Positions 12,593-49,583 of a stretch of 64,000 bases of DNA are shown piece after piece. The notes beneath the pieces were generated by a model. The model saw only the letters and a program-made list of their open reading frames with translations, was not told the DNA's origin and searched no databases. Positions within the stretch are counted from its first letter, which is position 1; each line of letters starts with the position of its first letter. This DNA comes from Gammaproteobacteria bacterium (lineage in GTDB: Bacteria > Pseudomonadota > Gammaproteobacteria > Steroidobacterales > PWYM01), in the NCBI GenBank assembly GCA_007693855.1, contig RECU01000040.1, forward strand, positions 1 through 64,000, read 5' to 3'. Made by a program: the position numbers and the translations under genes.

Positions 12593-12601
12593 GCCGGTCA
12601 A

Positions 12602-12611
12602 TTGTATACAG
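12602..12611. promoter_or_regulatory. TTGTATACAA-type operator between dctQ and the GST-like gene
   Basis: TTGTATACAG matches 9 of 10 positions of the palindrome TTGTATACAA found at four other places in the window. It lies 53 nt upstream of the GST-like start and overlaps a plausible plus-strand -35 (TTGTAT, with -10 TATACT at 12627-12632 and 19-nt spacing). Its location between two divergent genes suits a shared regulator. Confidence 0.55.
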
Positions 12612-12663
12612 CGGCACCGTGGCGGCTATACTTCACCTTCAAGAACGTCGGGGGGACACGCGA

Positions 12664-15542: not shown

Positions 15543-16349
15543 ATGACATCCACCCGCCCGATTCGCGCTCTGATCCGCGGCCTAGACGCGCTCACGATCC
15601 TGAACCTCAAGGATGGTGTCACCGTCTCGGAGGTGGCTCAGGAAATCGACCTGCCCCGCACCACAACGTACCGAATTCTCGAAACGCTCTGCCACGCCGG
15701 CTACGCTTATCGGTCAGACAGCGACGAGAAATATCGGCTGACCATCATGGTCCGCGGCCTGTCGGACGGTTTCGACGACGAGGCCTGGATCACGCAGACC
15801 GCCAAGCCGTTCATCTACGAACTCTGCCGGGAAATCGTCTGGCCAGTGTCGATCGCCACGCTGTCGGGCACCAGCATGTTGGTCCGCGAGACCACGGATC
15901 ACCAGAGTCCCCTGGCGGTGGAGCGCTACGGTCCCGGGTATCGCGTCCCAATGCTTGCCAGCGCCTCCGGGCTCGCCTATCTGGCCTTCTGCGAAAAGAC
16001 ACACCGGGAAGCCCTGCTGGATATGCTGGCCCGCTCGAAAAATACGGTAGACCACCCTGCCCGCAACCGCGCACCGGTCCAGAAGCTCCTGCTGGAGACC
16101 CGGGAACGCGGCTTCTCGATCCACACGCGGCCGCGCCGGGTCTCCGATCTCACCACATTCTCTGTGCCGGTGATCTCCGACGGCAGACTCATGGCGGCCC
16201 TGACCGTGCGCTTCTCCAGTACCGCGCTCACGCAGGCGGCTGCCATTGAACGCTTCGTGCCCCGCATGCGGCGTGCTGCCGACCAGATCGGCAGTGAATT
16301 CGCCAGGCAGCGGGCGGAGTATCAGAACGCTCAGCCAAGCGGGCGCTGA
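15543..16349 (+). CDS. IclR-family transcriptional regulator, MhpR-like
   Basis: A 268-residue regulator. The N-terminal winged helix includes IRALIRGLDALTILN, EVAQEIDLPRTTTYRILETL with the recognition helix, and a wing with YRLT. The C-terminal effector domain contains the family's typical SG-x-AYLAF segment (ASASGLAYLAFC). The IRGL-x-LTILN and PRTTTYRIL stretches recall MhpR, which responds to phenylpropionate-type acids, but the effector here cannot be known. It is divergent from the flavin reductase-SDR operon, which is its likely target. Confidence 0.92.
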   Translation: MTSTRPIRALIRGLDALTILNLKDGVTVSEVAQEIDLPRTTTYRILETLCHAGYAYRSDSDEKYRLTIMVRGLSDGFDDEAWITQTAKPFIYELCREIVWPVSIATLSGTSMLVRETTDHQSPLAVERYGPGYRVPMLASASGLAYLAFCEKTHREALLDMLARSKNTVDHPARNRAPVQKLLLETRERGFSIHTRPRRVSDLTTFSVPVISDGRLMAALTVRFSSTALTQAAAIERFVPRMRRAADQIGSEFARQRAEYQNAQPSGR

Positions 16350-16368: not shown

Positions 16369-17037
16369 TCAGAGTGCCGTCGCCCGCGACGCAGTCTCCC
16401 GGCCCATGGCCCGGTAAAACGCCGTGCGCGCCCCCAGCACATGCGCACGCATGATGGATGCGGCACTCGCCGGATCTCCGGCTTCCATGGCCAGCACGAT
16501 CTCGAGGTGGTGCTGCGAGCTCCGGAGCAGCTGCTCACCGCTGTACTTGCGAAAAGTCTGTGCGACCAGCGGCACCTCGATCAATGCCACGAGCATGCGC
16601 TGCAGGCGTTCGCTGGCAGCAATCTGTTGAAGTCGCTCGTGAAACTGGCTGTTGAGACGGGTGATTTCCTGCAATTGCCCCTCACCACCCGCCTGTGCTG
16701 CGGCAATCTGCGCCTCGGCCAGCGCCCTCAGGGCGGCAATATCCTCACTGCTGGCCAGCCGGGTGGCGCGCTCGACCGCGTAGGCCTCGAGCATCGCCCG
16801 AAGTTCGAACATGTCATCGATTTCCGACTCGCTCCAACGCGGCACTACCGTGCCATGATTCGGCACGAACTCAAGCAGGCCCTCGTTCTGAAGCCGTCGC
16901 AACGCCTCGCGCACCGGGGTGCGGCTGACGCCGGACAAGGCTGCCGCCTCGTGTTCGGTGACCCGCGTACCCGCGGCGAACCGCCCGTCGAGAATCGCCC
17001 GACGGACTGCACTGTAAGCCCGATCCACCGCCGTCAT
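16369..17037 (-). CDS. GntR-family regulator with FCD effector domain
   Basis: A 222-residue protein. Residues 1-70 form a winged helix with AILDGRFAAGTRVTEHEAA and SGVSRTPVREALRRL, the classic GntR recognition helix; the rest is an all-helical FCD domain with the metal-site-type residues (ELRAMLE, NSQFHERL, HHLEIVLAM). Such proteins usually bind short palindromes with a GT-N(1-3)-AC core, so the TTGTATACAA sites in this window are good candidate targets. No such site lies in front of its own gene. It is divergent from the membrane-protein gene at 17076. Confidence 0.93.
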   Translation of the reverse strand: MTAVDRAYSAVRRAILDGRFAAGTRVTEHEAAALSGVSRTPVREALRRLQNEGLLEFVPNHGTVVPRWSESEIDDMFELRAMLEAYAVERATRLASSEDIAALRALAEAQIAAAQAGGEGQLQEITRLNSQFHERLQQIAASERLQRMLVALIEVPLVAQTFRKYSGEQLLRSSQHHLEIVLAMEAGDPASAASIMRAHVLGARTAFYRAMGRETASRATAL

Positions 17038-17075
17038 GACCGGCCCGCCCGGCCCCGGACCCCGAGGAGTTGCTG

Positions 17076-17741
17076 ATGTCCTGGTATGAGTTCTGGATTT
17101 TCGTCCACGTCGTGCTCTTCGTTTACTGGCTCGGTGCGGATCTCGGTGTGCTCCTGCTCGCGCGCCGCGCCCGCGACCGCCACATGCCGCTGGAGCAACG
17201 CGCGCTGCTGCTGGAGATGGCCATGAAAATCGACTTCACACCGCGCATCGCATTCGTTCTCATGCTGCCCGTGGGCCTGCAGCTCGCCTGGACCAGTGGC
17301 CTGCTGCCCGGACAAGCCTGGCTACCCCTGCTGGCATGGGGTATCGCCGCTCTCTGGCTCGCCCTTGTGCTGCGCCTGGCGATGACGGGAGGTGCAGATC
17401 CGCTGCTCCAGCGGATCCAGAGCGCGTGGCTGCTCACCCTCGCACTGCTGATGGCACTGGCCGCTCTGTTGCCCTGGCTGCTGCCGGCCATATCGTGGCC
17501 GGGATGGTTTTCCGGGAAACTCGGACTGTACGCCTTGATCTGCCTGATGGCCCTGGGGATCGACCGGGCGTTCCAGCCCGTGGCGCATGGGTTTTCGCTG
17601 CTGGCCGGAGATGCGAAGGACGCCGCACGCGGTGAGGCGCTGGTTGGCCCCGGAATCGACGCGACCTTGCGCATCGTCGTGTCACTCTATGTTGCACTGA
17701 TGGCCGCCGCCTGGCTGGGCATCGTCAAGCCAGGCTTCTGA
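17076..17741 (+). CDS. Multi-spanning inner-membrane protein, paralogue of the gene at 9385-10059
   Basis: A 221-residue very hydrophobic protein with about five to six membrane segments. Its N-terminal helix contains HVVLFVYWLGADLGVLLL, and the next has FTPRIAFVLMLPVGLQL, matching the product of 9385-10059. ATG at 17076 is preferred because GAGGAG at 17064-17069 is ideally spaced. Function unknown; the conserved polar residues in the first two helices (His, Tyr, Asp, Arg) hint at ligand or proton binding. It ends in front of a convergent terminator facing the hydantoinase genes. Confidence 0.7.
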   Translation: MSWYEFWIFVHVVLFVYWLGADLGVLLLARRARDRHMPLEQRALLLEMAMKIDFTPRIAFVLMLPVGLQLAWTSGLLPGQAWLPLLAWGIAALWLALVLRLAMTGGADPLLQRIQSAWLLTLALLMALAALLPWLLPAISWPGWFSGKLGLYALICLMALGIDRAFQPVAHGFSLLAGDAKDAARGEALVGPGIDATLRIVVSLYVALMAAAWLGIVKPGF

Positions 17742-17748
17742 GCGACGA

Positions 17749-17783
17749 CCGGTCGGGCGTGGCGACCCGCCACCCCCGACCGG
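17749..17783. terminator. Convergent stem-loop between membrane protein and hyuB-like gene
   Basis: CCGGTCGGG (17749-17757) pairs with CCCGACCGG (17775-17783), and after a single mismatch GTGGC pairs with GCCAC, leaving a 5-nt loop. It stands between two convergent stops and so can end transcripts from both sides. No U-tract is present. Confidence 0.55.
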
Positions 17784-17795
17784 ACGCCCGGACCA

Positions 17796-19700
17796 TCAAC
17801 CAGCCATCTTCATTTTCGGCGCTGTCTGATCGGTCTTCAGCCACCGCGGAAACTCCGGCTGGGCCGGCGGCTCGAGCCCGGTCTCGGCCTTGCACCGGGC
17901 TTTGAGCTCCTCGACCGTACCGCCGAAATCGAACAGTTTGGTCTTGCCACGGTCGGCGGCCATGCGCACCCGAAGCTCGTCGCTCGCCTGTGCATCGATC
18001 TGGCCATCCGCACCCACGACCACACCATAACGGTGAACACCCTCGGGGGTCACCAGCCCGGCATCCAGGTCGAACTGGACCTTGTCGTAGGGGCGTTTCA
18101 GGGGATCGCCCCAGCCACCGCCACCCCAGGTGTCGAAGTAGAGGATATCACCGCTGTTCACGACCACCCGGTCGCACTTCGACGGCATCAGTTCCTGGCT
18201 GCCATCAGTGCGCACCATCAGTTTCTGGCTGCGCTGGCCCGGCAGACCGCCGTTCACCCCCCAGGGATAAGTCAGCCAGCGGTCGTCATGGATGGAGATT
18301 TCACCGGGCTCGAGGAAGCAGTACCCCACGCGCAGCGCATTGCCGCCGCGATGCAGCCCTGGGCCGCCGCTGTCGGGCAGCGTCTCATACGTCTCGATAC
18401 GCAGCGGGAAGTAGCTCTCGAGGAACTCATTGGGCACGTTGGTAAAGCTCGGCCACAGCGAATGACCATCCGGGCCATCACCCGAGGGCTTGCCGGGAAC
18501 GCCCCCGAAGCCGATCTGATAGAGCTGGTACCACTCACCTTTCTTGTCGTACCCCGAGTACATGAAGTGCGGGCTGTCGGAGAAGCCGGCGGCGCAGAGG
18601 AAGTCCGGACTGCCCTGACCGAGAAGCCCGCCGAGGATATCGAAAATGCGCCCCAAGGCGTGCGTACGGCAGGACAAGGCGGCCGGCTTCTTGGGCTTGA
18701 GCAGCGTGCCCTCGGGAATACGCACTTCCATGAGGTCGTAGAAGCCGTCGTTGAACATGATCTGGGGATCGAACACCATGATCATGTAGACGCCGCAGAA
18801 CATCTTGAACATCTCCTCATTGAGGAGAAAGTTCACCGGCCCGACGGATTGCGGATCGGTCCCGGCAAAATCAAAGATGACCTTCTCGCCCTCACGCCAC
18901 ATGGCGCAACGGATCTTGTACGGACCCATGCCCATACCATCATCGCAGATGTAGTCTTCGAAGTACTGCTTGGTCTCCGGCACGGTGGTATGGATCAGCT
19001 TGCGCATTGCCCGGTAGTTGCGATCAAGCAATTCTTCCAGCGCCGAATAGTAGACATCATCACCAAAGCGTTTCGCGAGCTCGATGCAACGCTTCTCGGC
19101 AGTGCGGATAGCCGCGACGATGGCGTTGAAATCGCTCAGGTTCCAGTGTGGCAGGCGGCAGTTGTGCAGAATGAGCTTGAGTACATCTTGCTGCAATTCG
19201 CCCTTGCGAAAGATCTTCACCGGCGGGATCACCACGCCTTCCTCAAAAATCTGCCGCGCATCAGTCGGCAGGCTGCCCGGAACCTTGCCGCCGATATCGG
19301 TCATATGCCCGAACATCGCGGCCCAGGCAATGATGCGGCCATCCTTGAAGATCGGCTTGAGCAACAGCCAGTCGTTGGCGTGGCTGATCGCGCCGTTGGC
19401 CGAGTACGGGTCTGAAGTGAGGAATACGTCGCCTTCCTCGATGGTCTCGTCGAATCCCTTCAGGAAGCCATGAATGAACGAGCCAAACTGGCCGACGACC
19501 ATCTTGCCGTCACGGTTCGCGATCATTGGAAACGCATCGCCCTGCTCGCGGATGCCCGGGGACATCGCGGTGCGAAACAGCACGGCGTCCATTTCATGCC
19601 GCGCATTGAGCATGGCGTTTTCAACAATGTCGAGGGTGATCGGGTCGACCTTCTTGCGTTTGAAGGCCTTTTTACTGGTTTCGATGATCTGTGCTGGCAT
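17796..19700 (-). CDS. Hydantoinase B/oxoprolinase family protein (acetone/acetophenone carboxylase alpha-like)
   Basis: A 634-residue member of the HyuB family. It begins with the typical DPITLDIVENAMLNARHEMD, then GDAFPMIANRDGKMVVGQF and the metal-site-like SDPYSANGAISHANDW and GHMTDIGGKVPGS, and ends with the VVVNSGDILYFDTWGGGGWGDPL motif. With HyuA-type ATPase subunits these proteins hydrolyse hydantoins or 5-oxoproline, or carboxylate ketones such as acetone and acetophenone; the short N-terminal KKAFKRKK stretch is unusual. It follows the HyuA gene by 55 nt on the same strand. Carboxylase or hydrolase cannot be decided from sequence alone. Confidence 0.9.
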   Translation of the reverse strand: MPAQIIETSKKAFKRKKVDPITLDIVENAMLNARHEMDAVLFRTAMSPGIREQGDAFPMIANRDGKMVVGQFGSFIHGFLKGFDETIEEGDVFLTSDPYSANGAISHANDWLLLKPIFKDGRIIAWAAMFGHMTDIGGKVPGSLPTDARQIFEEGVVIPPVKIFRKGELQQDVLKLILHNCRLPHWNLSDFNAIVAAIRTAEKRCIELAKRFGDDVYYSALEELLDRNYRAMRKLIHTTVPETKQYFEDYICDDGMGMGPYKIRCAMWREGEKVIFDFAGTDPQSVGPVNFLLNEEMFKMFCGVYMIMVFDPQIMFNDGFYDLMEVRIPEGTLLKPKKPAALSCRTHALGRIFDILGGLLGQGSPDFLCAAGFSDSPHFMYSGYDKKGEWYQLYQIGFGGVPGKPSGDGPDGHSLWPSFTNVPNEFLESYFPLRIETYETLPDSGGPGLHRGGNALRVGYCFLEPGEISIHDDRWLTYPWGVNGGLPGQRSQKLMVRTDGSQELMPSKCDRVVVNSGDILYFDTWGGGGWGDPLKRPYDKVQFDLDAGLVTPEGVHRYGVVVGADGQIDAQASDELRVRMAADRGKTKLFDFGGTVEELKARCKAETGLEPPAQPEFPRWLKTDQTAPKMKMAG

Positions 19701-19755
19701 GGGTCTTCTCTCTGCGTAATCCGATTATGTGGGTCGCCCTGCGAAGTGAGGCCCG

Positions 19756-21954
19756 TTAGCGCTTGGCAGCGGCTTTCTTCTTCGCCGCTGGTTTCTTGGC
19801 CACGGCTTTCCTGGTTGCCGGGGTTGCCTTTTTCCCGGCTGCCTTTTTCTTCGCCGTGGCGGCCTTGGTCGAGGTCTTGGCGGCACTGCCCTTGACGCCG
19901 ACCCCGTTGGGATTGATCAGAATATTGCCGAACTTGTCCACGCTGCCGGTATGCCCCGCCAGAATGACGGTCGTTGAATCCATCTCCATGACGACCGCTG
20001 GCCCCTCGATCTTGTTGCCAGCCTTGAGCTTGCTGCGATCGTAGATCTGGGCCTTGCGCATCTTGCCGTCGGCGTAGATCTTGTGCTCGGCAATGACCGC
20101 CGCCTTGGCGCTCGGTCCGCCGCGCTTGAGTTCAGGGGCCTTGACCTTGGTCGGCTTGCCCTGGACGACGGCGCGCAGGTTGACCAGCTCCTTGTCGAGT
20201 TCGAGCGCGAAGGTAAACAGCTGACGGTGCATCTCGTCGAAGGGCCCGCCGATGGCGGCCAGCCCCTGCTTGCGCAGCTGCTTGAGATCGACATCGACCG
20301 TCAGCTGCAGACCCTGGCCGTGATAGCGCACATCGACCTGGTAGCTCACCGACTGGTCCTTGCGTGCCACACCCTCCTTGTCGAGTGTCTTGGCAGCGAC
20401 GTCAGCCAGATCCTCGAAAATCCGTGCGACCTCGTCGACGTCGGTATCGGCGAACTTGCGGATGAAGGTGCGCGAGGCCTCATCACGTACCCGCGTGGTC
20501 GCATCACCATAGGCGCACAGCACGCCCGGACCCGGCGGAATGATGACCGGCCACGAGCCCATCAGCTTGCCGAGCGCATTGGCATGCAAAGGTCCGGCGC
20601 CACCGAAGGCGATCAGCGCGAAATCACGTGGATCATGGCCCTGTTCGACCGAGACCAGGCGCAGCGCGCCGCACATGTTTTCGTTGACAATATCGACGAT
20701 TCCAGAAGCGGCCTCGTGCACGGAGAGATCCAGCGCCTTGGCGATGCTCTGCACGGCGGTCTCGGCCAGGTCCTTGCGGATTTCCATGTCACCGCCGAGT
20801 TTCACCTCGGCCGGCAGATACCCGAGCACCACGTTGGCGTCGGTGACGGTGGGCAGCTCGCCACCCTTGTTGTACGCCGCGGGGCCTGGTGCCGCGCCGG
20901 CACTCTCCGGCCCGACGCGCAGCGCCTTGGTGAGCTCGGGGACCTTGGCGATGGAGCCGCCGCCGGCGCCCACCGTGCGCACATCGACAGACGAGGCCCG
21001 TACCGTCACGTCGCCCACCGTCGTCTCGCGGCGCAGCTGTGCCTTGCCACCCTGCACCAGGCAGACATCGGTCGAGGTGCCGCCCATGTCGAAAGTCAAC
21101 AGGTTCGGAAAACCAGCCTGGCTCGCCACCCAGATGGCACCGGACACGCCACCCGCCGGGCCACTCATCAGCAGGTTGACCGGTGTCTCCTCGGCTGCCT
21201 TGGCTGCCGCCAGACCGCCGTCGGAGCGGAGCACGTGCAGCTGCACGTTCTTCATCTTGCGGGTGAGCTCGCGGTGGAGGTTGCGGATGTAGGTCTGTAC
21301 CTTCGGCCGCACAAAGGAATTGGCGACAGTGGTGACGGTACGCTCGTATTCCTGCATCTCCGGAACGATCTCTGAAGACAGCGACACCGGAATCTCTGGC
21401 ATGACCCGCGCGGCCACGCGCTTGATCTTCTTCTCGTTGGCCGGGTTGGCGAACGAGTTGATCAGCGACACCGTCAACGCCTCGATGCCCTTCTCGCGCA
21501 GACGGATCAGCTCCGCCTCGATCTGCGCCTCGTCGAGCTTGCGCACGACTTTACCCTGCGCGCTCATCCGCTCTTCCGCCTCGATGGTCAGGGCAAGGGG
21601 CGCGATGGGGTTGGATTTGTTGTAGATCACCCAGCCGCCGAGACCCCCGGGTACGTAGGAGCGGGCGATCTGCAGCACCTGGCGGTAGCCGCGGGTCGTC
21701 ACCAGGCCCACTGTGGCACCGTTGCCTTCCAGCATGGTGTTCGTGGCCACGGTAGTCCCGTGCATCACGTGGGTGATTTCCTTCGGATCGATGCCCGCGT
21801 TGGCGCAGACCTTCTCGATGCCGTTGAGCACACCGATCGAAGAATCATGCGGGGTACTGGGCACCTTGGCCGTAAACACATCTCCGGACTTTTCGTTCAC
21901 CAACAGAAGGTCGGTAAAAGTGCCCCCTACGTCGACTCCCAAGCGATAACTCAT
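19756..21954 (-). CDS. Hydantoinase A/oxoprolinase family ATPase subunit with histone-H1-like tail
   Basis: A 732-residue HyuA protein. ATP-binding signatures of the acetate/sugar kinase/actin fold are visible: GVDVGGTFTDLLLVN at the N-terminus, HGTTVATNTMLEG, and later TFDMGGTSTDVCLV and FGGAGPLHA. It should activate the substrate carbonyl with ATP for the HyuB partner. Residues 689-732 form a separate low-complexity tail with 14 Lys, 2 Arg and 16 Ala in 44 residues, containing KK-x-A repeats like histone H1 or AlgP tails. Such a tail is not part of the enzyme family and could bind nucleic acid or polyphosphate. The stop is in frame and the tail is continuous with the ORF, so it does not look like a frameshift. 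Confidence 0.9.
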   Translation of the reverse strand: MSYRLGVDVGGTFTDLLLVNEKSGDVFTAKVPSTPHDSSIGVLNGIEKVCANAGIDPKEITHVMHGTTVATNTMLEGNGATVGLVTTRGYRQVLQIARSYVPGGLGGWVIYNKSNPIAPLALTIEAEERMSAQGKVVRKLDEAQIEAELIRLREKGIEALTVSLINSFANPANEKKIKRVAARVMPEIPVSLSSEIVPEMQEYERTVTTVANSFVRPKVQTYIRNLHRELTRKMKNVQLHVLRSDGGLAAAKAAEETPVNLLMSGPAGGVSGAIWVASQAGFPNLLTFDMGGTSTDVCLVQGGKAQLRRETTVGDVTVRASSVDVRTVGAGGGSIAKVPELTKALRVGPESAGAAPGPAAYNKGGELPTVTDANVVLGYLPAEVKLGGDMEIRKDLAETAVQSIAKALDLSVHEAASGIVDIVNENMCGALRLVSVEQGHDPRDFALIAFGGAGPLHANALGKLMGSWPVIIPPGPGVLCAYGDATTRVRDEASRTFIRKFADTDVDEVARIFEDLADVAAKTLDKEGVARKDQSVSYQVDVRYHGQGLQLTVDVDLKQLRKQGLAAIGGPFDEMHRQLFTFALELDKELVNLRAVVQGKPTKVKAPELKRGGPSAKAAVIAEHKIYADGKMRKAQIYDRSKLKAGNKIEGPAVVMEMDSTTVILAGHTGSVDKFGNILINPNGVGVKGSAAKTSTKAATAKKKAAGKKATPATRKAVAKKPAAKKKAAAKR

Positions 21955-22074
21955 CTGTTCACCCGATTTGGCTGGTTGTTACCTGTTATCACGAACCCGT
22001 CGGGTCCGCCCTGTTTACTCTGACCAACAACGGCACGTTGCGCGCGCCTGTGCGCTGGCCCATCCGAAGCGCGG
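21955..22074. other. Intergenic region upstream of hyuA-like gene
   Basis: This 120-bp stretch separates the hydantoinase A start from the stop of the HMG-CoA-lyase-like gene on the same strand. It is AT-richer than its surroundings and has GTTGTTACCTGTTATC-type sequence, suggesting a promoter for the hydantoinase pair, but I find no clear -10/-35 pair or TTGTATACAA site in it. Confidence 0.35.
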
Positions 22075-22989
22075 TCAGGCGGCATTCTGCGCCACGACCT
22101 CCGGAAAACTGCCGGCCTTGGGAAGCATGGCCGGGACGCCGCGCCCAAGCACTTCCGCAAGCCACTCACTCGTGGCGATGATACCGGCAAGATCCACCCC
22201 GGTGGTTATACCCGATCGATTGAGCATGTACACGAGGTCATCCGTTGGAATATTACCGGTCGCTGCCGGCGCGAACGGACAGCCGCCGATCCCGCCGATG
22301 CTGGCATCGAGCGCGCTGACGCCCGCCTGCACCGCGGCATAGGCATTCGCCAGGCCGGTGTTGCGCGTGTTGTGGAAGTGACAGCGGATGGCGATGTGCG
22401 GCAGACGCTCGCGCACGGCACCGATCATGTCGGTCACCTGGGCGGGCACCCCGACGCCAATGCTGTCGGCCAGCGCAATTTCCACGGGCTCGGCCTCGGC
22501 CACCTGCTCGGCGATCTCCAGCACCCGCGCGAGCGGCACCTCGCCTTCGAAGGGGCAGCCGAACGCCGCGGAAATGGTCACGCTTGCGCGGATGCCGCTC
22601 TGCCGCGCCGCTGCGGCGATATCGAGCCAGTCGCGGATCGACTGCGCCGTCGGCACGCCCTGATTGCGCTGGTTATAGGTATCGGTGGCGACCACCGGCA
22701 TGCCGATTTCGTCGACCCCGGCCTGACGCGCCCGGTCGAATCCCTGGCGATTGAGCACCAGCCCCGCGTAAATGACGTCCTCCCGCTTGGGCAGCCCGGC
22801 GAGCACGGCCTCGGCATCGGCCATCTGCGGCACCTTGCGCGGGTGCACGAAGCTGGCCACCTCGAGGCGCCGGATCCCGGCCGCCACGGCTCGGTTGATG
22901 TATTCAAGTTTGCTGGCCGTCGGCAGGACCTCGGGCTCACTCTGCAGGCCGTCGCGCGGCCCGACTTCGACGATCTCGATGTGCTGCAT
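22075..22989 (-). CDS. Hydroxymethylglutaryl-CoA lyase-like protein (HMGL/DRE-TIM family)
   Basis: A 304-residue TIM-barrel enzyme. The catalytic start EVGPRDGLQSE, the metal-binding RCHFHNTRNTGLANAY region and the GGIGGCPFAPAATGNIPTDD loop, with its catalytic Cys, are the hallmarks of HMG-CoA lyases and their relatives. These cleave beta-hydroxy-beta-methyl acyl-CoA esters to acetyl-CoA and a keto acid or ketone. Start ATG at 22989 has GGAGG upstream; the upstream extension in the frame lacks homology. It is divergent from the CaiB-type transferase, and a TTGTATACAA operator overlaps its probable -10. Some homologues instead cleave other acyl-CoAs, so the substrate may differ. Confidence 0.9.
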   Translation of the reverse strand: MQHIEIVEVGPRDGLQSEPEVLPTASKLEYINRAVAAGIRRLEVASFVHPRKVPQMADAEAVLAGLPKREDVIYAGLVLNRQGFDRARQAGVDEIGMPVVATDTYNQRNQGVPTAQSIRDWLDIAAAARQSGIRASVTISAAFGCPFEGEVPLARVLEIAEQVAEAEPVEIALADSIGVGVPAQVTDMIGAVRERLPHIAIRCHFHNTRNTGLANAYAAVQAGVSALDASIGGIGGCPFAPAATGNIPTDDLVYMLNRSGITTGVDLAGIIATSEWLAEVLGRGVPAMLPKAGSFPEVVAQNAA

Positions 22990-23065
22990 GGATAACCTCC
23001 CGGGTCCCGGTGCCAAGCCGCGCCGCATCCCCCGGCGCAGGCATCGGACAGATGCCCCGCCCTTG

Positions 23066-23075
23066 ATTGTATACA
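23066..23075. promoter_or_regulatory. TTGTATACAA operator on the HMG-CoA-lyase-like promoter
   Basis: A perfect TTGTATACAA palindrome lies 77 nt upstream of the lyase start. On the minus strand it overlaps a candidate -10 (TACAAT) that is 18 nt from a -35-like CTGACG. Its centre is 65 bp from that of the second site at 23131-23140, so both divergent genes have one site each. Confidence 0.6.
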
Positions 23076-23130
23076 ACCTGGAGCGCCCGCGTCAGTCCCG
23101 CTGTGCGCCTTGACCCTTGGCGAAGCGGGA

Positions 23131-23140
23131 TTGTATACAC
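23131..23140. promoter_or_regulatory. TTGTATACAA-type operator on the CoA-transferase promoter
   Basis: TTGTATACAC matches the palindrome at 9 of 10 positions. It contains the candidate -10 TATACA (23134-23139), which is 18 nt downstream of a good -35 TTGACC at 23110-23115 on the plus strand. Binding there would block RNA polymerase, consistent with repression. Confidence 0.6.
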
Positions 23141-23227
23141 TAGCCCCTGTCCGGCCGCGTGCGCGGCCCGCCAGCACGGCATTCTGCCTCCGACGAACTC
23201 CAATCAGAAACCATGGGACAAGAACGC

Positions 23228-24442
23228 ATGACCACCGACGCCACTTCACCTGCCGGGGCCCTGTCCGGGCTGCGTGTCATCGAGATGGGGACCCTGCTTG
23301 CAGGGCCATTCTGCGGCCAGCTGCTGGGCGATTTCGGCGCCGAGGTCATCAAGATCGAACCGCCCGGCAAGGGCGATCCAATGCGCGAGTGGGGCCAGGA
23401 AAAAGCCCATGGCAAGTCCCTCTGGTGGCCCGTCATTGCCCGTAACAAGAAGTCGATCACCCTGAACCTGCGCGAAGAGGCCGGACAGGAGATCGTTCGC
23501 GAGTTGGTGCGAGACGCCGATTTCCTGCTTGAGAATTTCCGTCCGGGCACGATGGAGCGCTGGAACCTGGATTACCAGACGCTCGCCGAGATCAACCCGA
23601 AGCTCATCATGATTCGCGTCTCCGGGTTTGGTCAGACCGGCCCCTATTCGAAGCGCGCCGGCTTTGGCGCAGTCGGCGAATCCATGGGGGGGCTACGGTA
23701 TGTCTGCGGAGATCCGCGGACGCCCCCAAGCCGCATGGGGATCAGCATCGGTGACTCGCTGGCGGCTACCTTCGCCTGTGTTGGCGCCCTGTCCGCACTG
23801 CATTACCGGGAGCGGACCGGTCGGGGCCAGGTGGTCGACTCGGCCATCTACGAGGCCGTGTTGAACATGATGGAGTCGCTGGTCACGGAGTACGACGCCG
23901 TCGGGTACATTCGCGAGCGTCAGGGATCGATCCTCCCCAACGTGGCACCCTCGAACGTCTACCCCACGAAAGACGACAAGCTGCATCTGATCGCCGCCAA
24001 CCAGGACACGGTTTTCAGGCGGCTTGCGGCCGCCATGGGACGGCCGGAACTCGCCGAAGACCCGCGCTACAGCAGTCACACCGCCCGCGGTCAGCGCCAG
24101 CAGGAGCTCGATGAGCTGATCTCCGAGTGGACCCGGACACTGACCCAGGAGGAGTTGATCGGCTTGATGGATGAGCATGGCATCCCGGCCGGCGGCATCT
24201 ACCGCGCCCCGGAAATGCTCGAAGACCCGCACTTCAAGGCGCGCCAGGCCATCATCGAGGTGATGCACCCTGAGCTCGGTTCGCTGAAGATGCAGAATAT
24301 CGCTCCAAAGCTCTCCCTCACCCCCGGCCAGGTTCGGGCCGTCGGCCCGGAGCTCGGGCAGCATAACGAAGAGGTTTACCGCGGCGTGCTGGGCTACGAC
24401 GATGCGCGACTGCAAAGCCTGCGCGATCAGGGGATCATCTGA
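23228..24442 (+). CDS. CaiB/BaiF-family (class III) CoA-transferase
   Basis: A 404-residue protein with the interlocked-ring class III CoA-transferase sequence. It opens GLRVIEMGTLLAGPFCGQLL, then GAEVIKIEPP, ENFRPGTMERW, and the catalytic aspartate Asp176 in GISIGDSLAAT, which forms the acyl-Asp intermediate. It moves CoA between carboxylic acids. The start at 23228 fits the family; an ATG 15 nt earlier at 23213 is possible. It is followed by the isochorismatase-like gene after 2 nt and a VOC gene, in an operon divergent from the lyase. Together with that lyase it suggests activation and cleavage of a branched or hydroxylated acid. Confidence 0.93.
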   Translation: MTTDATSPAGALSGLRVIEMGTLLAGPFCGQLLGDFGAEVIKIEPPGKGDPMREWGQEKAHGKSLWWPVIARNKKSITLNLREEAGQEIVRELVRDADFLLENFRPGTMERWNLDYQTLAEINPKLIMIRVSGFGQTGPYSKRAGFGAVGESMGGLRYVCGDPRTPPSRMGISIGDSLAATFACVGALSALHYRERTGRGQVVDSAIYEAVLNMMESLVTEYDAVGYIRERQGSILPNVAPSNVYPTKDDKLHLIAANQDTVFRRLAAAMGRPELAEDPRYSSHTARGQRQQELDELISEWTRTLTQEELIGLMDEHGIPAGGIYRAPEMLEDPHFKARQAIIEVMHPELGSLKMQNIAPKLSLTPGQVRAVGPELGQHNEEVYRGVLGYDDARLQSLRDQGII

Positions 24443-33566: not shown

Positions 33567-33576
33567 CTGTATACAA
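33567..33576. promoter_or_regulatory. Isolated TTGTATACAA-type site
   Basis: CTGTATACAA (9 of 10 to the palindrome) lies 14 nt past the acyl-CoA dehydrogenase stop and 292 nt upstream of the DUF3450 start. It does not overlap a promoter I can recognise. It may be a functional operator for the TonB2 operon, or chance. Confidence 0.35.
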
Positions 33577-37478: not shown

Positions 37479-37507
37479 TTGACAGCCCCGGTTGTATACA
37501 ACATGAT
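37479..37507 (+). promoter_or_regulatory. Candidate sigma-70 promoter of the leu operon
   Basis: Consensus -35 TTGACA (37479-37484), 17-nt spacing and -10 CATGAT (37502-37507, four of six matches). A start site near 37514 would place the leader ATG at 37515 almost at the 5' end, so either the message is nearly leaderless or the in-frame GTG at 37566 is used. This promoter assignment is therefore moderate. Confidence 0.5.
37491..37502. promoter_or_regulatory. Perfect GTTGTATACAAC palindrome in the leu promoter
   Basis: A 12-bp perfect palindrome with the TTGTATACAA core at 37492-37501 lies between the -35 and -10 boxes of the leu promoter. It is the most symmetrical of the five sites in the window. 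It suggests that transcription initiation, besides attenuation, is controlled by a GntR-type regulator. Confidence 0.55.
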
Positions 37508-37514
37508 CCAGGCC

Positions 37515-37628
37515 ATGAACATCGCTGCGCCCAGGCTGAATCTGTTCGTCACAGGCACCCTGTCTGTGCGGGGCGCGCTTGCCGGCCTTCTCCTGCTTAG
37601 CCGCTGGAGGTGCGGGCTGTCCGGCTGA
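37515..37628 (+). CDS. leu operon leader peptide
   Basis: A 37-residue ORF, too short for normal gene calls. It holds nine Leu codons, including the run CTT CTC CTG CTT at 37587-37598 (residues 25-28, GLLLLSRW). After the Leu run, GGTGCGGG at 37609-37616 is complementary to the 5' arm of the terminator at 37654-37661. If leucyl-tRNA is scarce, a ribosome stalled on the Leu run would leave 37609-37616 free to form the antiterminator, while completed translation to the TGA at 37626-37628 would mask it. The exact start codon is uncertain. Confidence 0.8.
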   Translation: MNIAAPRLNLFVTGTLSVRGALAGLLLLSRWRCGLSG

Positions 37629-37686
37629 ACACCACGTTTCGCTGAACACCAACCCCGCACCGGCAGACGATGCGGGGTTTTTTTTT
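37609..37686 (+). terminator. leu attenuator: antiterminator/terminator pair
   Basis: The terminator is a perfect 9-bp stem AACCCCGCA (37651-37659) / TGCGGGGTT (37671-37679), 11-nt loop, followed by nine Ts (37678-37686). Its 5' half can pair instead with GGTGCGGG (37609-37616), with an additional copy GTGCGGGG at 37566-37573. These mutually exclusive structures, directly after a Leu-rich leader ORF, define a transcription attenuator controlling the leu operon. Confidence 0.88.
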
Positions 37687-37727: not shown

Positions 37728-38825
37728 ATGATCGACCAACGCCTACCGGCCGAGCTGGCCGCGACCGACTGGGGTGCCGAGCCCGAGCAGCAGGAACAGC
37801 CGTCGACGTTTGCCGACATCGAGGCTGCCGCCGAGGTGATCGCCGCGTGGCTGCAGCCGACACCCCTCATCCGCCATCCCCTGCTCAACCAGCGCGCCGG
37901 CTGCGATCTGTGGGTGAAGCTGGAAAATGCCCAGCCGGTGGGCTCTTTCAAGATCAGGGGAACACTGAATCTGCTGGCCGCGCTGACCCCCGCTCAGCGT
38001 TCGGTCGGCCTGGTGACCGCCACGCGCGGGAACTTCGGTCAGGCGCTCGCGCGCGCCGCGGCGCTCTACGGCGCCCGCTGCACGATCTTCGTCCCCATGG
38101 GTAACGCGCCGGGCAAGAACGCCGCGATGCGCGCCACCGGCGCGGAGGTGATCGAACGCGGCCACGACTTCGATGCCGCCTGGGATGCTGCAGCACGGCA
38201 TGCGCGACGCAGTGGCCAGCCCTGCATTCATCCGGCACGTCACCGTGCCCTGGTCGCCGGACAGGGCACGGTCGCGCTGGAGATGCTCCGCCAGGTCTCT
38301 CAGCCTTTCGATGCCATCATCGTCCCGGTCGGCGGCGGCAGCCTGGCTGCCGGGACCGCACTCGCCGCGCGCAGACTCAGCCCGCATACCCGCATCATCG
38401 CGGTGCAGGCCGAGAATGCACCGGCTTTCCACCATGCCTGGCACACCGGCGAGGATCGTGCATTCGCCACCGCGCCGACGATTGCCGACGGCCTGGCCAG
38501 CCGGATCCCCGTCGCCTACACGATGTCGGTGCTGCGCGAGCATATCGACGAGTTCGTGACGGTCAGCGAGGCCGAGATCGCCGCCGCCATCCGGCTCTAT
38601 CTGGACACCGTCCACCAGCTTGCCGAGGGCGGGGGTGCCGCGCCCCTGGCGGCAGCCTGCAAACTCGCCGATGAACTCTCGGGCCGGCGCGTCGGCGTCG
38701 TGCTCAGCGGCGGCAACATCGATATCCCGACGCTGCGCGAGGTGCTCGACGAGGCGCCGACTCAGCACCATCCCCGGGCCATGGGCATCTATCCCATGGC
38801 CTCCCTCGATTACGGTAGCCGTTGA
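37728..38825 (+). CDS. Threonine dehydratase-like PLP enzyme without ACT domain
   Basis: A 365-residue fold-type II PLP enzyme. The PLP lysine motif is VGSFKIRGTLN, then ATRGNFGQALA and the phosphate-binding VPVGGGSLAAG; the C-terminus has VVLSGGNID. It resembles threonine/serine dehydratases and serine racemases. There is no C-terminal ACT-like regulatory domain, and a roughly 30-residue N-terminal extension precedes the catalytic domain. As first gene of the leu operon it probably makes 2-oxobutyrate for isoleucine, acting as an IlvA. The missing domain means that isoleucine feedback would have to act otherwise. Confidence 0.85.
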   Translation: MIDQRLPAELAATDWGAEPEQQEQPSTFADIEAAAEVIAAWLQPTPLIRHPLLNQRAGCDLWVKLENAQPVGSFKIRGTLNLLAALTPAQRSVGLVTATRGNFGQALARAAALYGARCTIFVPMGNAPGKNAAMRATGAEVIERGHDFDAAWDAAARHARRSGQPCIHPARHRALVAGQGTVALEMLRQVSQPFDAIIVPVGGGSLAAGTALAARRLSPHTRIIAVQAENAPAFHHAWHTGEDRAFATAPTIADGLASRIPVAYTMSVLREHIDEFVTVSEAEIAAAIRLYLDTVHQLAEGGGAAPLAAACKLADELSGRRVGVVLSGGNIDIPTLREVLDEAPTQHHPRAMGIYPMASLDYGSR

Positions 38826-38843
38826 CCGACAGGAGCCAAGACC

Positions 38844-40409
38844 ATGACCACACTGGCAGATGACAACCGCGTCAAGATCTTCGATACCACCCTGCGCGAT
38901 GGCGAGCAGGCTCCGGGCTGCAGCATGACGCTCCGTGAGAAGCTTCGCGTGGCCCAGGCGCTGGCCGATCTGCGCGTGGACATCATCGAGGCAGGGTTCC
39001 CGGCCGCGTCCCCGGGCGACTTCGAGTCCGTACAGGCCATCGCTGGCAGTATCCGCGGCCCGGTGATCTGCGGCCTGGCACGCTGTAACCCCGCCGACAT
39101 CGAGCGTGCCTGGCACGCGCTGCGCGAGGCCGAACACAAACGTATCCACGTGTTCGTCGCCACCAGTGCGATTCACCGCGAGCACAAGCTGCAGATGGCC
39201 AAGGAGGAGATTCTCAAGAGCGCGGTGGAGGGCGTGAAGCTCGCCCGCAGCTTCTGCGACGACGTGGAATTCTCCCCGGAAGACGCCTCGCGCACCGAGC
39301 TCGAATACCTGGCAGAGGTCGTCGCCGCCGTCATCGAAGCCGGCGCCAGAACCATCAACATTCCGGATACCGTGGGCTACACGGTCCCGGGTGAATTCCA
39401 TGAGGTCTTCCGCTATTTAAAGGAGCACGTCCCGGGCATCGATAACGTGGTGCTCTCGGTCCACTGCCATGACGATCTGGGTATGGCAGTGGCCAACAGC
39501 CTGGCTGCGGTGCAGGCCGGGGCACGTCAGGTGGAGTGCACGATCAACGGCATCGGTGAGCGGGCCGGCAACTGCTCGCTCGAGGAAATCGTGATGGCGC
39601 TGAAGACCCGCGAGGCCTACTTCGGACTGCACACGGGGATTGAGTCACGGCGTCTGTATCCCACCAGTCGGCTGGTCTCCTCGATCACCGGCATGCACGT
39701 CCCGCGCAACAAGGCGGTGGTCGGTGAAAATGCCTTCGCCCACGAGGCGGGCATCCACCAGCATGGCATGCTGCGTCATCATGCCACCTACGAGATCATG
39801 CGCCCGGAAGATGTCGGCATCAGCCGCTCCAACCTGGTGCTGGGCAAGCATAGCGGGCGTCATGCGTTCCGCGAGCGCGTCGAGCAACTCGGTTTCCGCC
39901 TGGATGACGCCGAGCTCAAGCGCTGTTTCGACGAGTTCAAGAAGCTCGCTGATCGGAAGAAGGAGATGTTCGACGCCGACATCGAGGCGATACTCATGAA
40001 CGCCGAGACTGGCCAGGCGGGATACTGGCGCATGGAAGAGCTGCATATCACCGCCGGCACGGGGACGATTGCGGCAGCCGCCGTGAAGCTCGTCTCTGAA
40101 GAAGACGAGGAGGTTCAGGAAGCGGCCGTCGGCGACGGCCCGGTCGCGGCGGCGTTCCGCGCCCTGGAGCGCGCCACCGGTATCGAACTGGTGCTGAAGA
40201 ACTTCGAGTTGCGCAGCGTGACCCTCGGGAACGATGCCCAGGGTGAGGTCACCGTGACGGTCGAATATAATGGGCAGTCCTTCAGGGGCCAGGGGCTGTC
40301 CACGGACATCGTCGAGGCTGGCGCGCGCGCTTACCTGGAGGTCATCAACCGCATCCAGCGACGACTGCGCAGCCCGGCGGCCGCGCCCGCCGCGGCGGCG
40401 AGCGCCTGA
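38844..40409 (+). CDS. leuA: 2-isopropylmalate synthase
   Basis: A 521-residue enzyme of the first committed step to leucine (acetyl-CoA + 2-oxoisovalerate). The N-terminal TIM barrel has IFDTTLRDGEQAPGCSM, the metal site VHCHDDLGMAVAN and GIGERAGNCSLEE; the GIHQHGML helix follows, and the C-terminal half contains the LeuA leucine-binding domain ending in a Pro/Ala-rich tail. AGGAG at 38831-38835 precedes the start. It lies 18 nt after the dehydratase gene within the attenuated operon. Confidence 0.97.
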   Translation: MTTLADDNRVKIFDTTLRDGEQAPGCSMTLREKLRVAQALADLRVDIIEAGFPAASPGDFESVQAIAGSIRGPVICGLARCNPADIERAWHALREAEHKRIHVFVATSAIHREHKLQMAKEEILKSAVEGVKLARSFCDDVEFSPEDASRTELEYLAEVVAAVIEAGARTINIPDTVGYTVPGEFHEVFRYLKEHVPGIDNVVLSVHCHDDLGMAVANSLAAVQAGARQVECTINGIGERAGNCSLEEIVMALKTREAYFGLHTGIESRRLYPTSRLVSSITGMHVPRNKAVVGENAFAHEAGIHQHGMLRHHATYEIMRPEDVGISRSNLVLGKHSGRHAFRERVEQLGFRLDDAELKRCFDEFKKLADRKKEMFDADIEAILMNAETGQAGYWRMEELHITAGTGTIAAAAVKLVSEEDEEVQEAAVGDGPVAAAFRALERATGIELVLKNFELRSVTLGNDAQGEVTVTVEYNGQSFRGQGLSTDIVEAGARAYLEVINRIQRRLRSPAAAPAAAASA

Positions 40410-40436
40410 ACAACAAACGATTACAAGGTACACCCC

Positions 40437-41381
40437 ATGCCCATCCAAGCAAGTCGCTTCATCTGGTTCAACGGCAAGCTCGTCCCCTGGGAGGAAGCCA
40501 ACGTCCACGTCCTCTCACACGCGCTGCATTACGGCTCGTCGGTGTTCGAGGGCATCCGCGTCTACCGCAGTCCCGCAGGCAGCCAGATCTTCCGCCTGGA
40601 GGAACATCTCCGGCGGCTGCATGACTCGGCCAAGATCTACCGTTTCCCGATCCCCTATGACGTGCCCACGCTCGCGGCGGCCTGCAAGCAGGTCATCCGC
40701 GACAACGGCCTGGAAAACGGCGCCTACATCCGACCTGTGGCCTTTCGCGGCTATGGCGAGATCGGGCTGGCGGCCAAACCGGACCATCGCGTCGACACCG
40801 CCATCGCCGCGTGGGAATGGGGGGCCTACCTGGGTGCCGAGGGCATGGAAAAGGGTGTGGATGTGTGCATTTCCTCCTGGCAGCGGGTCGCGCCCAACAC
40901 CCTGCCCGCATTGGCCAAGGCCGGAGGAAACTATCTCTCGAGCCAGCTGATCAGCATGGAGGCACGGCGGCTTGGCTTCGCCGAGGGCATTGCGCTGACC
41001 ACCCGTGGCACGGTCAGCGAGGGCGCGGGCGAGAACGTCTTCGTGGTCAAGAACGGCCGGATCTTCACACCGACGGCCACTGATTCCATCCTCACGGGGA
41101 TCACCCGCGACACCATCATCACGCTGGCACGCGAAGCGGGCCTCGAAGTGATCGAGAAGGAGCTCCCGCGCGAGATGCTGTATCTCGCCGACGAGATCTT
41201 CCTGACAGGTACGGCGGCGGAAATCACGCCAGTGCGCTCGGTGGACCGCCTGGAGGTCGGGACGGGCTGTCGCGGACCCGTGACCGAGATGCTTCAGTCA
41301 CGCTTTTTCGGCCTGTTCGACGGCTCGACCCCGGACCGTTGGGGCTGGCTTGACCCGGTCGACGCAAGCACGGCGGCCTGA
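40437..41381 (+). CDS. ilvE: Branched-chain amino acid aminotransferase
   Basis: A 314-residue fold-type IV PLP aminotransferase. The [21 protein letters not shown] opening, [13 protein letters not shown], the PLP-Lys region [18 protein letters not shown] and [15 protein letters not shown] match BCAT enzymes. It does the last transamination to leucine, isoleucine and valine. Its presence inside the leu gene cluster couples keto-acid supply with transamination. Confidence 0.95.
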
Positions 41382-41434
41382 TTCACAGCCGGGCACCGCG
41401 GCCCGGTCCAAACCATCTCGAGATAGGGAGTGTC

Positions 41435-42841
41435 ATGAGCGCCAAATCGCTGTTTGCCAAGGTATGGGACGAGCATATCGTCGTGCCCGAATCCGACGAC
41501 CATCCGGCCGTCCTGTACATCGACCTGCACCTCACCCACGAGGTCACCTCGCCGCAGGCGTTCTCTGTCCTGCGCGAGCGGGGCCTGCCGGTGCGCCGCA
41601 CCGACCTGACCCTGGCGACCATGGATCACTCCACTCCTACGCTGCCGGTACGCAGCTTCAAGGAGCTGCAGGTGGTGGCAGAACCCAAGGCCGCCGCCCA
41701 GATCGTGAAGCTCGAGCAGAACTGCGCGGAGTTCGGCGTGACGCTGCACGGCTTCGACAGTGAATATCGCGGCATCGTGCATGTCATCGGGCCGGAACTC
41801 GGCGCTACCCAGCCCGGCAAGACCATTGTCTGCGGCGACAGCCATACCTCAACCCACGGCGCCTTCGGTGCGCTGGCCTTTGGCATCGGCACGACGGAAG
41901 TCGGCCACGTGATGGCCACCCAGTGCCTGTTGCAGCGCCGGCCGAAGACCTTCGCGGTCAACTTCGAGGGGCAGCTCCAGCACGGCGTCACCGCCAAGGA
42001 CATGATTCTCGCGCTGATCGGCAAGATCGGCGTGGATGGCGGCGTCGGGCACGTGTTCGAGTACCGGGGCAGCGCCATCGCCGGGCTAGACATGGAGCAG
42101 CGGATGACCATCTGCAACATGTCGATCGAGGCCGGTGCGCGCGCCGGCATGATTGCACCGGACGATACCACCATCGAGTACCTGGCCGGGCGCCCGCTGG
42201 TGCCCCAGGGTGCCGCCTGGGATCAGGCCGTGGCCCGCTGGCGCAGCCTGCCCTCGGACCCCGATGCACACTTCGACCGGGAGGTCACCCTCGACGTCTC
42301 GGCGCTGCGCCCGATGGTCACCTTTGGCACCAATCCGGGCATGGTCGTCGCCATAGACGAGGCCATCCCCGAGCGCAGCGATGCCAATTTCCGCAAGGCA
42401 CTGGAGTACATGGGCGTGACGGCCGGGCGCCCGCTGGCCGGACATCCCGTGAACGTCGTGTTCGTAGGCAGCTGCACCAATTCGCGGCTCTCCGACCTCG
42501 AGCAGGCGGCCGCCGTGATGAAGGGACGGCATGTCGCCGAAGGTGTGCGCATGCTGGTGGTCCCCGGCTCCCAGCAGGTCAAGAAGGCCGCCGAGGCGCG
42601 CGGACTCGACCGGGTGTTCACCGAAGCAGGCGCCGAGTGGCGGGAATCCGGCTGCTCGATGTGCCTTGGCATGAACGGCGATACCGTACCCTCCGGGCAA
42701 CTCGCCGTCAGCACCAGCAACCGCAACTTTGAAGGGCGTCAGGGCAAGGGGGCACGCACCGTGCTGGCCAGCCCGGCCACGGCCGCTGCCAGCGCACTGG
42801 CGGGCAGCGTAGCTGATCCGCGCCCTTACCTCGCGAACTGA
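41435..42841 (+). CDS. leuC: 3-isopropylmalate dehydratase large subunit
   Basis: A 468-residue aconitase-family protein. The [4Fe-4S] ligands are in [14 protein letters not shown] and GCSMCLGMN; the substrate-site signature [19 protein letters not shown] is visible. With LeuD it isomerises 2-isopropylmalate to 3-isopropylmalate. Spacing to ilvE is 53 nt, to leuD 11 nt. Confidence 0.97.
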
Positions 42842-42852
42842 CGGAGACCCCC

Positions 42853-43437
42853 ATGGAACCCATCAAAGTCATCCGCTCGCGCACGGTCGTTCTGCCCTAT
42901 GACGATGTGGATACGGATCAGATCATTCCCGCGCGCTACCTGACCACCACCACCCGCGATGGCCTCGGCGAAGCCGCGTTCGCCGACTGGCGTTACGACG
43001 AAAACGGCGAGCCCCGGCCAGACTTCGAACTCAACCAGCCGGAGGCGGCGGGTTGCCAGGTGCTGGTTGCCGGCAACAACTTCGGCTGCGGCTCGTCGCG
43101 CGAACACGCCCCCTGGGCACTGCTCGACTCCGGCATTCTTGCCGTGATCAGCACCGAAATCGCCGATATTTTCCGCAGCAACTCCCTCAAGAACGGTCTG
43201 CTCCCGGTGGTCGTCGACGCAGACACGCACGCCTGGCTGCTGGCCAACCCCGGTGCGGAAGTCAGTATCGACCTGGCTGAGCGCCTTGTCGGGTTGCCGG
43301 ACGGCCGCCAAGTGGCGTTCCCCATCGACGGCTTCTCGCGTTACTGCCTGATGAACGGCATCGACCAGCTCGGCTTCCTGCTGCAGCAGGAAGCCGAGAT
43401 CCTGAAATTCGAGCAGAACCGCCCATGGCAGCCCTGA
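42853..43437 (+). CDS. leuD: 3-isopropylmalate dehydratase small subunit
   Basis: A 194-residue swivel-domain subunit. The family signatures [17 protein letters not shown] and [18 protein letters not shown] are intact. It completes the LeuCD isomerase. Its 3' end overlaps leuB by 13 nt, implying translational coupling. Confidence 0.97.
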
Positions 43438-44480
43438 TTGCCGTACTGCCCGGGGACGGCATCGGCCCGGAGGTTACCGCCGAGGCGGTGCGGGTGCTGA
43501 AGGCCGCCGGCGCGCGTCACGGCCTCGAACTCGAGTTCCGGGAAGGCCTGATCGGCGGCGCGGCCATCGATGCCGGAGAGCCGCCTCTGCCGCTGAAAAC
43601 GGCGGAGCTGTGCGCCGAGGCCTCGGCCGTCCTGCTCGGCGCCGTGGGCGGACCCAGGTGGTCCGATCCGGGCGCGGCCTACCGCCCGGAGCAGGGGCTG
43701 CTCGACCTGCGCGCGACGCTGGGTGTCTACGCCAATCTGCGTCCCGTCAAACCGCACCCGGCACTGCTGGCCGCCTCGCCGCTGCGCCCTGAGTTGCTGT
43801 CAGGCGTGGATATCATGGTCGTACGGGAGCTCACCGGTGGCATCTACTTCGGGCGCAAGACCCGTAGCGAGTCGGTGGCCACCGATGAGTGCCGCTACAG
43901 CGTCGAGGAAATCGAACGCATCGTCCGCATCGCCGGTCGGCTGGCCCAGGCCCGGCAGCGACGCATCGTGTCGGTCGACAAGGCCAACGTTCTGGAGACT
44001 TCCCGGCTGTGGCGGACAGTCACCAGCCAGGTGCTCGCGGCGGAATTCCCGGACGTCGAGGTCGAGCACATGCTGGTCGATGCCGCCGCGATGCACCTGC
44101 TGAGCCGCCCGGCGAGCTTCGATGTCATCGTCACCGAGAACATGTTCGGCGACATCCTCACCGACGAGGCCTCCATGCTCGCCGGCTCGCTGGGACTGCT
44201 GCCCTCCGCTTCGCTCGGCGAGGGTGGCCGAGGCCTGTACGAACCGATCCACGGCTCCGCGCCCGACATTGCCGGCCAGGGGATCGCAAACCCCTGCGGC
44301 ACGATACTCAGTGCCGCGCTGCTGCTGCGCCACTCGCTGGACTGCGAAGCGGCGGCGCGCGACATCGAGAGCGCCGTCTCTGCGGTCCTCGACGACGGCC
44401 TGCGCACGGCGGATCTGGCGCGCGGGGGCAGCAGCATTGGCACGCGGGCCTTCGGCGACGCCGTGCTGGCGAAACTCTGA
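43425..44480 (+). CDS. leuB: 3-isopropylmalate dehydrogenase
   Basis: A 351-residue NAD-dependent beta-decarboxylating dehydrogenase. [42 protein letters not shown] and the C-terminal [20 protein letters not shown] are the LeuB motifs. It yields 2-oxoisocaproate for IlvE. It is the last gene of the operon; a stem-loop follows at 44501-44528. Confidence 0.97.
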
Positions 44481-49338: not shown

Positions 49339-49390
49339 GGGAGGATGTCATGCGCCTGCCTGGCCTTTCGCTGCCAGTCGCCGCTCGACC

Positions 49391-49510
49391 CTCATCTGTC
49401 GCCGGGCGCCTGATCCGCACCCCGCGCAGGAGTTGGCACCTTGTCGAGGTGGTGAGCCCCGATGGTTGCCCCGGCATCACTGGGCCTGTCCCTCAGCCGG
49501 TCTCGATGAG
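49391..49510 (-). ncRNA. SAM-I (S-box) riboswitch controlling metB-metY-metX
   Basis: The minus-strand RNA contains the S-box core in order: GAGGGACAGGCCC, TGATGCC then GGGGCAACC, and GGTGCCAACTCCTGC, closing with GACAGATGAG. The outer P1 helix is CTCATC (49510-49505) with GATGAG (49396-49391). This matches the SAM-I consensus GAGGGA-N-GGCCC ... GCAACC ... GGTGC-AA-TCC-GC ... GAxAGATxAG. It lies 140 nt upstream of metB and should turn off the operon when S-adenosylmethionine is abundant. Confidence 0.94.
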
Positions 49511-49583
49511 CGCAACGAGTCTATTGCGCGAGTGCTGGAAGCGTCAAGGCCAGGCCACGGGGGCTTGTGCCGCGCCGCAGCAT

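Follow-up and report, generated by a model that had tools for sequence, protein, structure and literature searches.

A promoter palindrome and a leader attenuator as two putative brakes on the leucine operon in a genus of uncultured Gammaproteobacteria

In an uncultured bacterial group, the leucine genes appear to be doubly braked, by an old leucine-sensing RNA switch and by a newer DNA repressor site that also marks genes for nutrient breakdown, nutrient uptake and glutamate synthesis. The two brakes, a GntR repressor site and a leader attenuator, would act on the leucine operon independently of each other; we give this reading a probability of roughly 0.7, and the case for dual control is comparative throughout. 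The order in which the two layers were assembled seems to be visible, with an RNA attenuator found across the order followed by a repressor site that is confined to one genus and stands there alongside sites at gltB, and both a candidate regulator and its operator can be named for experimental testing. The window, i.e., the whole stretch of 64,000 nucleotides that was analyzed, corresponds to contig C36 within a 3.28-Mb draft genome, and those of its near relatives that carry a name (L002-L006) are metagenome-assembled Gammaproteobacteria. The genus was sampled with five genomes, that of the window (G000) and four congeners (G001-G004), which provided six leader copies since G003 has two. The order-wide comparison covered 396 genomes, the five of the genus and 391 others.

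The elements that a first-pass annotation had listed at the leucine operon were all present when the nucleotide sequence was read directly. They are, with the operon itself:

37479..37507, plus strand: promoter, with -35 TTGACA (37479-37484) and -10 CATGAT (37502-37507) separated by a 17-nt spacer
37491..37502, plus strand: palindrome GTTGTATACAAC, proposed FCD GntR operator, read directly and conserved in the genus
37515..37628, plus strand: leader ORF MNIAAPRLNLFVTGTLSVRGALAGLLLLSRWRCGLSG, 37 codons, with ATG at 37515 (7 nt past the -10) and stop codon TGA at 37626-37628
37587..37598, plus strand: four Leu codons CTT CTC CTG CTT, read directly, proposed stalling site
37609..37616, plus strand: 5′ arm of the antiterminator, GGTGCGGG, within the leader ORF and ending 9 nt before its stop codon
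37653..37686, plus strand: terminator CCCCGCA...TGCGGGG followed by nine T, -16.4 kcal/mol
37728..44480, plus strand: controlled operon, coding for threonine dehydratase (ilvA/tdcB type), leuA, ilvE, leuC, leuD and leuB

The perfect palindrome GTTGTATACAAC sits between the -35 and -10 hexamers as annotated, with the small correction that its final base doubles as the initial base of the -10. When up to two mismatches were allowed, four matches to GTTGTATACAAC were found in the window compared to a mean of 0.21 after shuffling, and the expectation for a promoter-like match in the pattern scan was 0.1 per stretch. Comparison of the six genus copies shows both the conservation and the placement of the site. 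The 17-nt spacing between -35 and -10 is identical in all of them, GTTGTATACAA is invariant across the six copies of the leu/ilvC palindrome, and palindrome, arm and terminator form invariant columns in an alignment in which most leader positions vary. The composite TTGACA-N7-TTGTATACAA was found at six places in five of the 396 order genomes, each time at a branched-chain leader; these are the five genomes of the window's genus, and none of the 391 order genomes outside the genus includes it. The first gene of the operon is threonine dehydratase in G000, G001, G002 and G004 and ilvC in G003, where the composite operator-promoter is kept as well.

The same site recurs at other promoters. A search of the whole genome with TTGTATACA gave 13 matches at ten distinct places, compared to one match for the reversed control, and the matches in G001, G002, G003 and G004 were 13, 17, 19 and 9 (reversed control 0, 0, 2 and 0). 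Five of the ten distinct places fall in the 64-kb window (binomial 6.5e-7, a guide only, as the window was non-randomly drawn). Besides the leu/ilvC promoter site, which is kept in all five genus genomes, the following sites were identified in the window:

23066..23077, plus strand: ATTGTATACAAC, first site in the divergent HMG-CoA lyase (-)/CaiB (+) promoter, found in 5/5 genomes
23130..23141, plus strand: ATTGTATACACT, second HMG-CoA lyase/CaiB site, overlapping the -10-like TATACA of the CaiB promoter
33568..33576, minus strand: TTGTATACA site upstream of the DUF3450/ExbB operon, overlapping a -10-like TATACA, found in 5/5 genomes
12601..12612, plus strand: ATTGTATACAGC, between the divergent genes for DctQ (-) and a GST-like protein (+), found in 4/5 genomes

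The two HMG-CoA lyase/CaiB sites of the window are 64 bp apart. The palindrome at 33568-33576 lies over the -10 of a conserved -35/-10-like pair. This pair follows the stop codon of an acyl-CoA dehydrogenase gene by about 20 nt and precedes the DUF3450/ExbB operon by about 290 bp. Outside the window, each of the five genus genomes has a TTGTATACAA palindrome immediately next to the gltB -35 (L054:1501-1510, corresponding to G000:C59:6017-6026). This gene codes for the large subunit of glutamate synthase; its score falls short of the full-length cut-off, as the reading covered no more than the N-terminal third. TonB-dependent receptor genes are preceded by TTGTATACA at G000:C18:173289 and C18:177886 (L045 and L046), and these sites are kept in most of the genus: one group is found in four of the five genomes, and a second can be followed in all five, although in two genomes, where the contig ends, it shows up only through the neighboring gene. 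The sites occupy core-promoter positions, abutting the -35 at gltB, covering the -10-like TATACA at CaiB and at the ExbB operon, and filling the spacer at leu. The first-pass annotation had proposed that the palindrome links leucine synthesis to a catabolic regulon. That proposal is supported at the HMG-CoA lyase/CoA-transferase promoter, where the site is kept, and proved too narrow for the putative regulon as a whole, which in the genus genomes extends beyond catabolism to gltB, TonB-dependent receptors and the ExbB operon.

The palindrome is likely read by a regulator encoded in the window, 20 kb from the leu operon palindrome:

16369..17037, minus strand: FCD-type GntR regulator, candidate reader of the palindrome; VanR group according to the closest solved homolog

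The GntR and FCD domains of this protein score 60.0 and 78.9 bits, respectively, compared to curated cut-offs of 27 and 24.3, which places it in the FCD subfamily, and orthologs were found in all five genus genomes with 64-94% identity in the four congeners. The gene is part of a group (16369-24442) that includes GntR, hydantoinase B and A, HMG-CoA lyase and CaiB; portions of this group recur in other families, with GntR beside hyuB or HMGL, and HMGL beside CaiB. An IclR-type regulator gene (15543-16349) adjoins it. No TTGTATACA site was found in the region upstream of the GntR gene itself.

Outside the genus, a GntR match at E <= 1e-40 was found in 13 of 142 genomes. These 13 genomes include 14 perfect TTGTATACAA sites, seven of which are within 10 kb of the GntR gene compared to 0.1 expected; after merging pairs located 63 bp apart, five of 12 sites lie within this limit (p 1.4e-8), which was picked after the sites were seen. 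Of the 34 palindrome loci outside the genus, 19 were inspected (L127-L145), and in four of them (L132, L133, L137 and L142) the palindrome is located between HMGL and CaiB homologs. A surplus of palindromes in ortholog-bearing genomes was not seen (14 sites in the 13 genomes with the ortholog and 20 sites in 20 genomes without it), and four of the 13 genomes have no perfect TTGTATACAA site. Because site numbers fail to separate the two groups of genomes, the connection between GntR and palindrome shown by this comparison is one of location.

The closest solved homolog of the window GntR is Atu1419, a VanR-group FCD GntR repressor of Agrobacterium fabrum described as binding ATGTATACAT and as needing the G base of TTGTATACAA, with DNA contacts at Arg31, Glu34, Ser44, Arg45, Thr46 and Arg49 and zinc ligands Asn137, His141, His192 and His214 (PMC7797058). 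All ten positions, the six named DNA contacts and the four zinc ligands (N,H,H,H), are identical in the window protein, and the wing residue Gly66 of Atu1419 is replaced by Asn. The SRTPVRE contact motif is common among FCD regulators; therefore, identity at the contact residues says little about specificity. Relatedness to Atu1419, the zinc ligands and the palindrome core TGTATACA all agree with the VanR group, an assignment made by closest homolog. Taken together, the FCD GntR in the window, its orthologs in all five genomes, the linkage elsewhere and the identical 8-bp core of the homolog's site lend support to the annotation's suggestion of a possible GntR regulator at the leu promoter, and binding of the palindrome and repression by the window GntR are predicted.

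Dual control could also be real with another regulator reading the palindrome, be it a second FCD protein (encoded on contig C5), the adjoining IclR-type protein or an unlinked factor. The second FCD protein and the IclR protein at 15543-16349 are indeed encoded in the genome, and two genomes that have no close GntR ortholog (G006 and G028) nonetheless have the palindrome at a TonB-dependent receptor. However, the contig with the second FCD gene has no TTGTATACA site, and in other families it is the GntR gene that is found near the palindrome, with no IclR match in the 19 inspected loci. Since, in addition, the nearest solved homolog of the window GntR is described as binding the same core as that of the palindrome, we consider a different reader unlikely. 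A separate idea, that GntR took over following the loss of Lrp, was rejected, as each of the five genomes has 3 to 5 AsnC/Lrp-type matches.

It is considerably less probable that the GntR protein activates the leu promoter instead of repressing it. Some FCD regulators, such as FadR, can both activate and repress, and the site at gltB abuts the -35; on the other hand, the polymerase is normally blocked by a protein that occupies the stretch between -35 and -10 or the -10 itself. The sites of Atu1419 are of this kind, lying over the -10 or, in one copy, between -35 and -10, and repression of two target promoters and of its own promoter is reported (PMC7797058). Repression by the VanR-group GntR is the sign of control that we infer at the leu promoter.

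The second brake would act on elongation. Direct reading agreed with the annotation on a leader ORF that has four Leu codons in a row at 37587-37598, a run with a simulated chance of 0.0022 within 37 codons. The ATG is located 6-7 nt past the -10 in all six genus copies, and translation of the leader is therefore probably leaderless. All six copies have GGTGCGGG, with the stop codon starting 9 nt past the arm in each. Its pairing partner, CCCGCACC, is at once the 5′ half of the terminator, of whose 5′ arm it includes most, and the 3′ arm of the antiterminator. The mutually exclusive structures and the terminator that had been annotated are conserved in the six genus copies, and comparison shows the two folds to be exclusive in each; the same was found in all 19 leaders that were folded. 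Among the genus copies, folding energies range from -22.8 to -26.8 kcal/mol for the antiterminator stretch and from -16.4 to -17.5 kcal/mol for the terminator. The terminator and arm are nearly invariant among the leaders compared, and for this reason base-pair covariation lends little support.

The leader peptides are rich in codons for the end products, as in an attenuator. The four dehydratase-first copies include a run of LLLL (that of the window) or LLLLL, and the two ilvC-first copies, both from G003, have the mixed Val/Leu/Ile runs LVLLGLLLRI or LVLLGLILRI, so that the runs fit the products of each operon. Readthrough that responds to Leu is predicted at this leader. The two diverged copies of leader and ilvC-ilvA in G003 (T3Sed10_137) are on separate contigs (L004 and L005) and reflect duplication or a mixture of strains. 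The terminator was not listed by the pattern scan because its 11-nt loop exceeds the limit of 8. None of the Rfam families at the gathering and E-value thresholds was usable for the leader, which scores 13.0 bits with Leu_leader (RF00512) compared to a gathering score of 50; it would work like Leu_leader without being a member. The window has an attenuator below every Rfam cut-off, yet of fixed geometry, with the arm inside the leader ORF and the stop codon 9 nt past it. A conserved 1:2 pause hairpin was considered and dropped: as judged by eye on the genus sequences, the GCCGG/CCGGC pairing can be written in the window and G001, but G004 and G002 have a different upstream half. Elsewhere in the window, a SAM riboswitch was found on the minus strand at 49389-49512 (77.8 bits, cut-off 44.4).

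The relative age of the two controls was approached with an RNA model of the leader that was built without the promoter. At E <= 0.01 it matched 197 of the 396 order genomes, a loose list that includes partial and reverse-strand matches and from which 20 loci (L146-L165) were inspected. At all 15 of the best loci outside the genus, the downstream gene is ilvC and the stop codon is 9 nt past the arm, and no TTGTATACAA occurs within 250 nt upstream of the arm. The outer helix of the antiterminator has eight pairs in 17 of 19 leaders and seven in the other two, a count that omits L162, whose terminator falls outside the pattern of the script, and the second G003 copy. Because ilvC leaders outside the genus keep the RNA part without TTGTATACAA, the attenuator looks older than the operator; it appears to be old in the order, and the operator would have been added within the window's genus. 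In other families the homologous operon makes do with attenuation. That the same is true here, with the palindrome as a promoter peculiarity or a relic, is very improbable: all six copies keep the palindrome unchanged, at GntR identities as low as 64%, whereas other spacer positions vary, and unrelated promoters have conserved the same word.

With both brakes in place, the pathway could proceed as follows. At initiation, the VanR-group FCD GntR repressor (16369-17037) would bind GTTGTATACAAC in the promoter spacer and exclude RNA polymerase until it is released by an effector presumably connected with the catabolism and uptake genes of its regulon. At elongation, ribosomes would translate the leader peptide, probably by leaderless initiation at a 5′ AUG. 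A shortage of charged tRNA-Leu would stall the ribosome on CTT CTC CTG CTT, with a footprint expected to leave GGTGCGGG (37609-37616) free; pairing of the latter with CCCGCACC would then prevent formation of the terminator and the operon would be transcribed. When leucine is ample, the ribosome would reach the stop codon 9 nt past the arm and should cover the arm, the CCCCGCA/TGCGGGG hairpin would form and transcription would terminate. The order of assembly would be an attenuator old in the order and an operator gained later in the window's genus. More tentatively, we propose that in this genus a VanR-type FCD GntR has broadened into a general nutrient regulator comparable to Lrp or CodY. Elsewhere in the order it is apparently local, at an HMG-CoA-lyase/CoA-transferase/hydantoinase cluster and TonB-dependent receptors; in the genus, its operator may have spread to the core promoters of leu/ilvC and gltB, at the former on top of an older attenuator whose leader has become leaderless, such that catabolic status would gate initiation and tRNA-Leu charging would gate elongation.

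The proposed arrangement resembles that of the E. coli trp operon, which has a TrpR operator in its core promoter followed by a leader-peptide attenuator; in that case both layers sense tryptophan, whereas those of the leu operon would sense different things. Dual control by attenuation and a possible GntR regulator had been annotated as unusual. Two controls on a branched-chain operon have a precedent, however, in the S. aureus ilv-leu operon, which likewise combines a trans-acting repressor, CodY, with a Leu-rich leader-peptide attenuator (PMC5794164). As described, S. aureus differs in that CodY is a sensor of isoleucine with no relation to GntR, and in that its leader has a ribosome binding site and an antiterminator that pairs with the poly-U tail. 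Atu1419 shares with the window GntR a 10-bp palindrome with core TGTATACA and sites over the -10 or between -35 and -10; its regulon, however, is one of hydroxycinnamate catabolism, it is self-repressing and responds to folate as effector, and the passages of PMC7797058 that were consulted contain no amino-acid biosynthesis targets. In the trpL attenuator of S. meliloti, the leader ORF is at the 5′ end of the RNA (PMC7298713), as is probable at the leu leader, where it would begin at or beside the transcript 5′ end; trpL differs in being specific for tryptophan, in having no repressor in the account given, and in that its 5′ end was mapped, while that of the leu leader is deduced. The ArgR regulons, whose gltBD and ilvMGDA members are specific to certain lineages (PMC5343134), offer a parallel for a regulator with a pathway core that acquires gltB and ilv genes in one lineage, although ArgR belongs to another regulator family and attenuation plays no part there. 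Literature searches found no case of an FCD GntR that controls leu or gltB by way of a site of this kind, and nothing linking TTGTATACAA with GntR or DgoR with half-sites. Comparative work on proteobacterial attenuators may already describe this attenuator in related orders. The parts are each of a known type; to the extent covered by the literature searches, what is new is their combination, its origin in two steps and the regulon.
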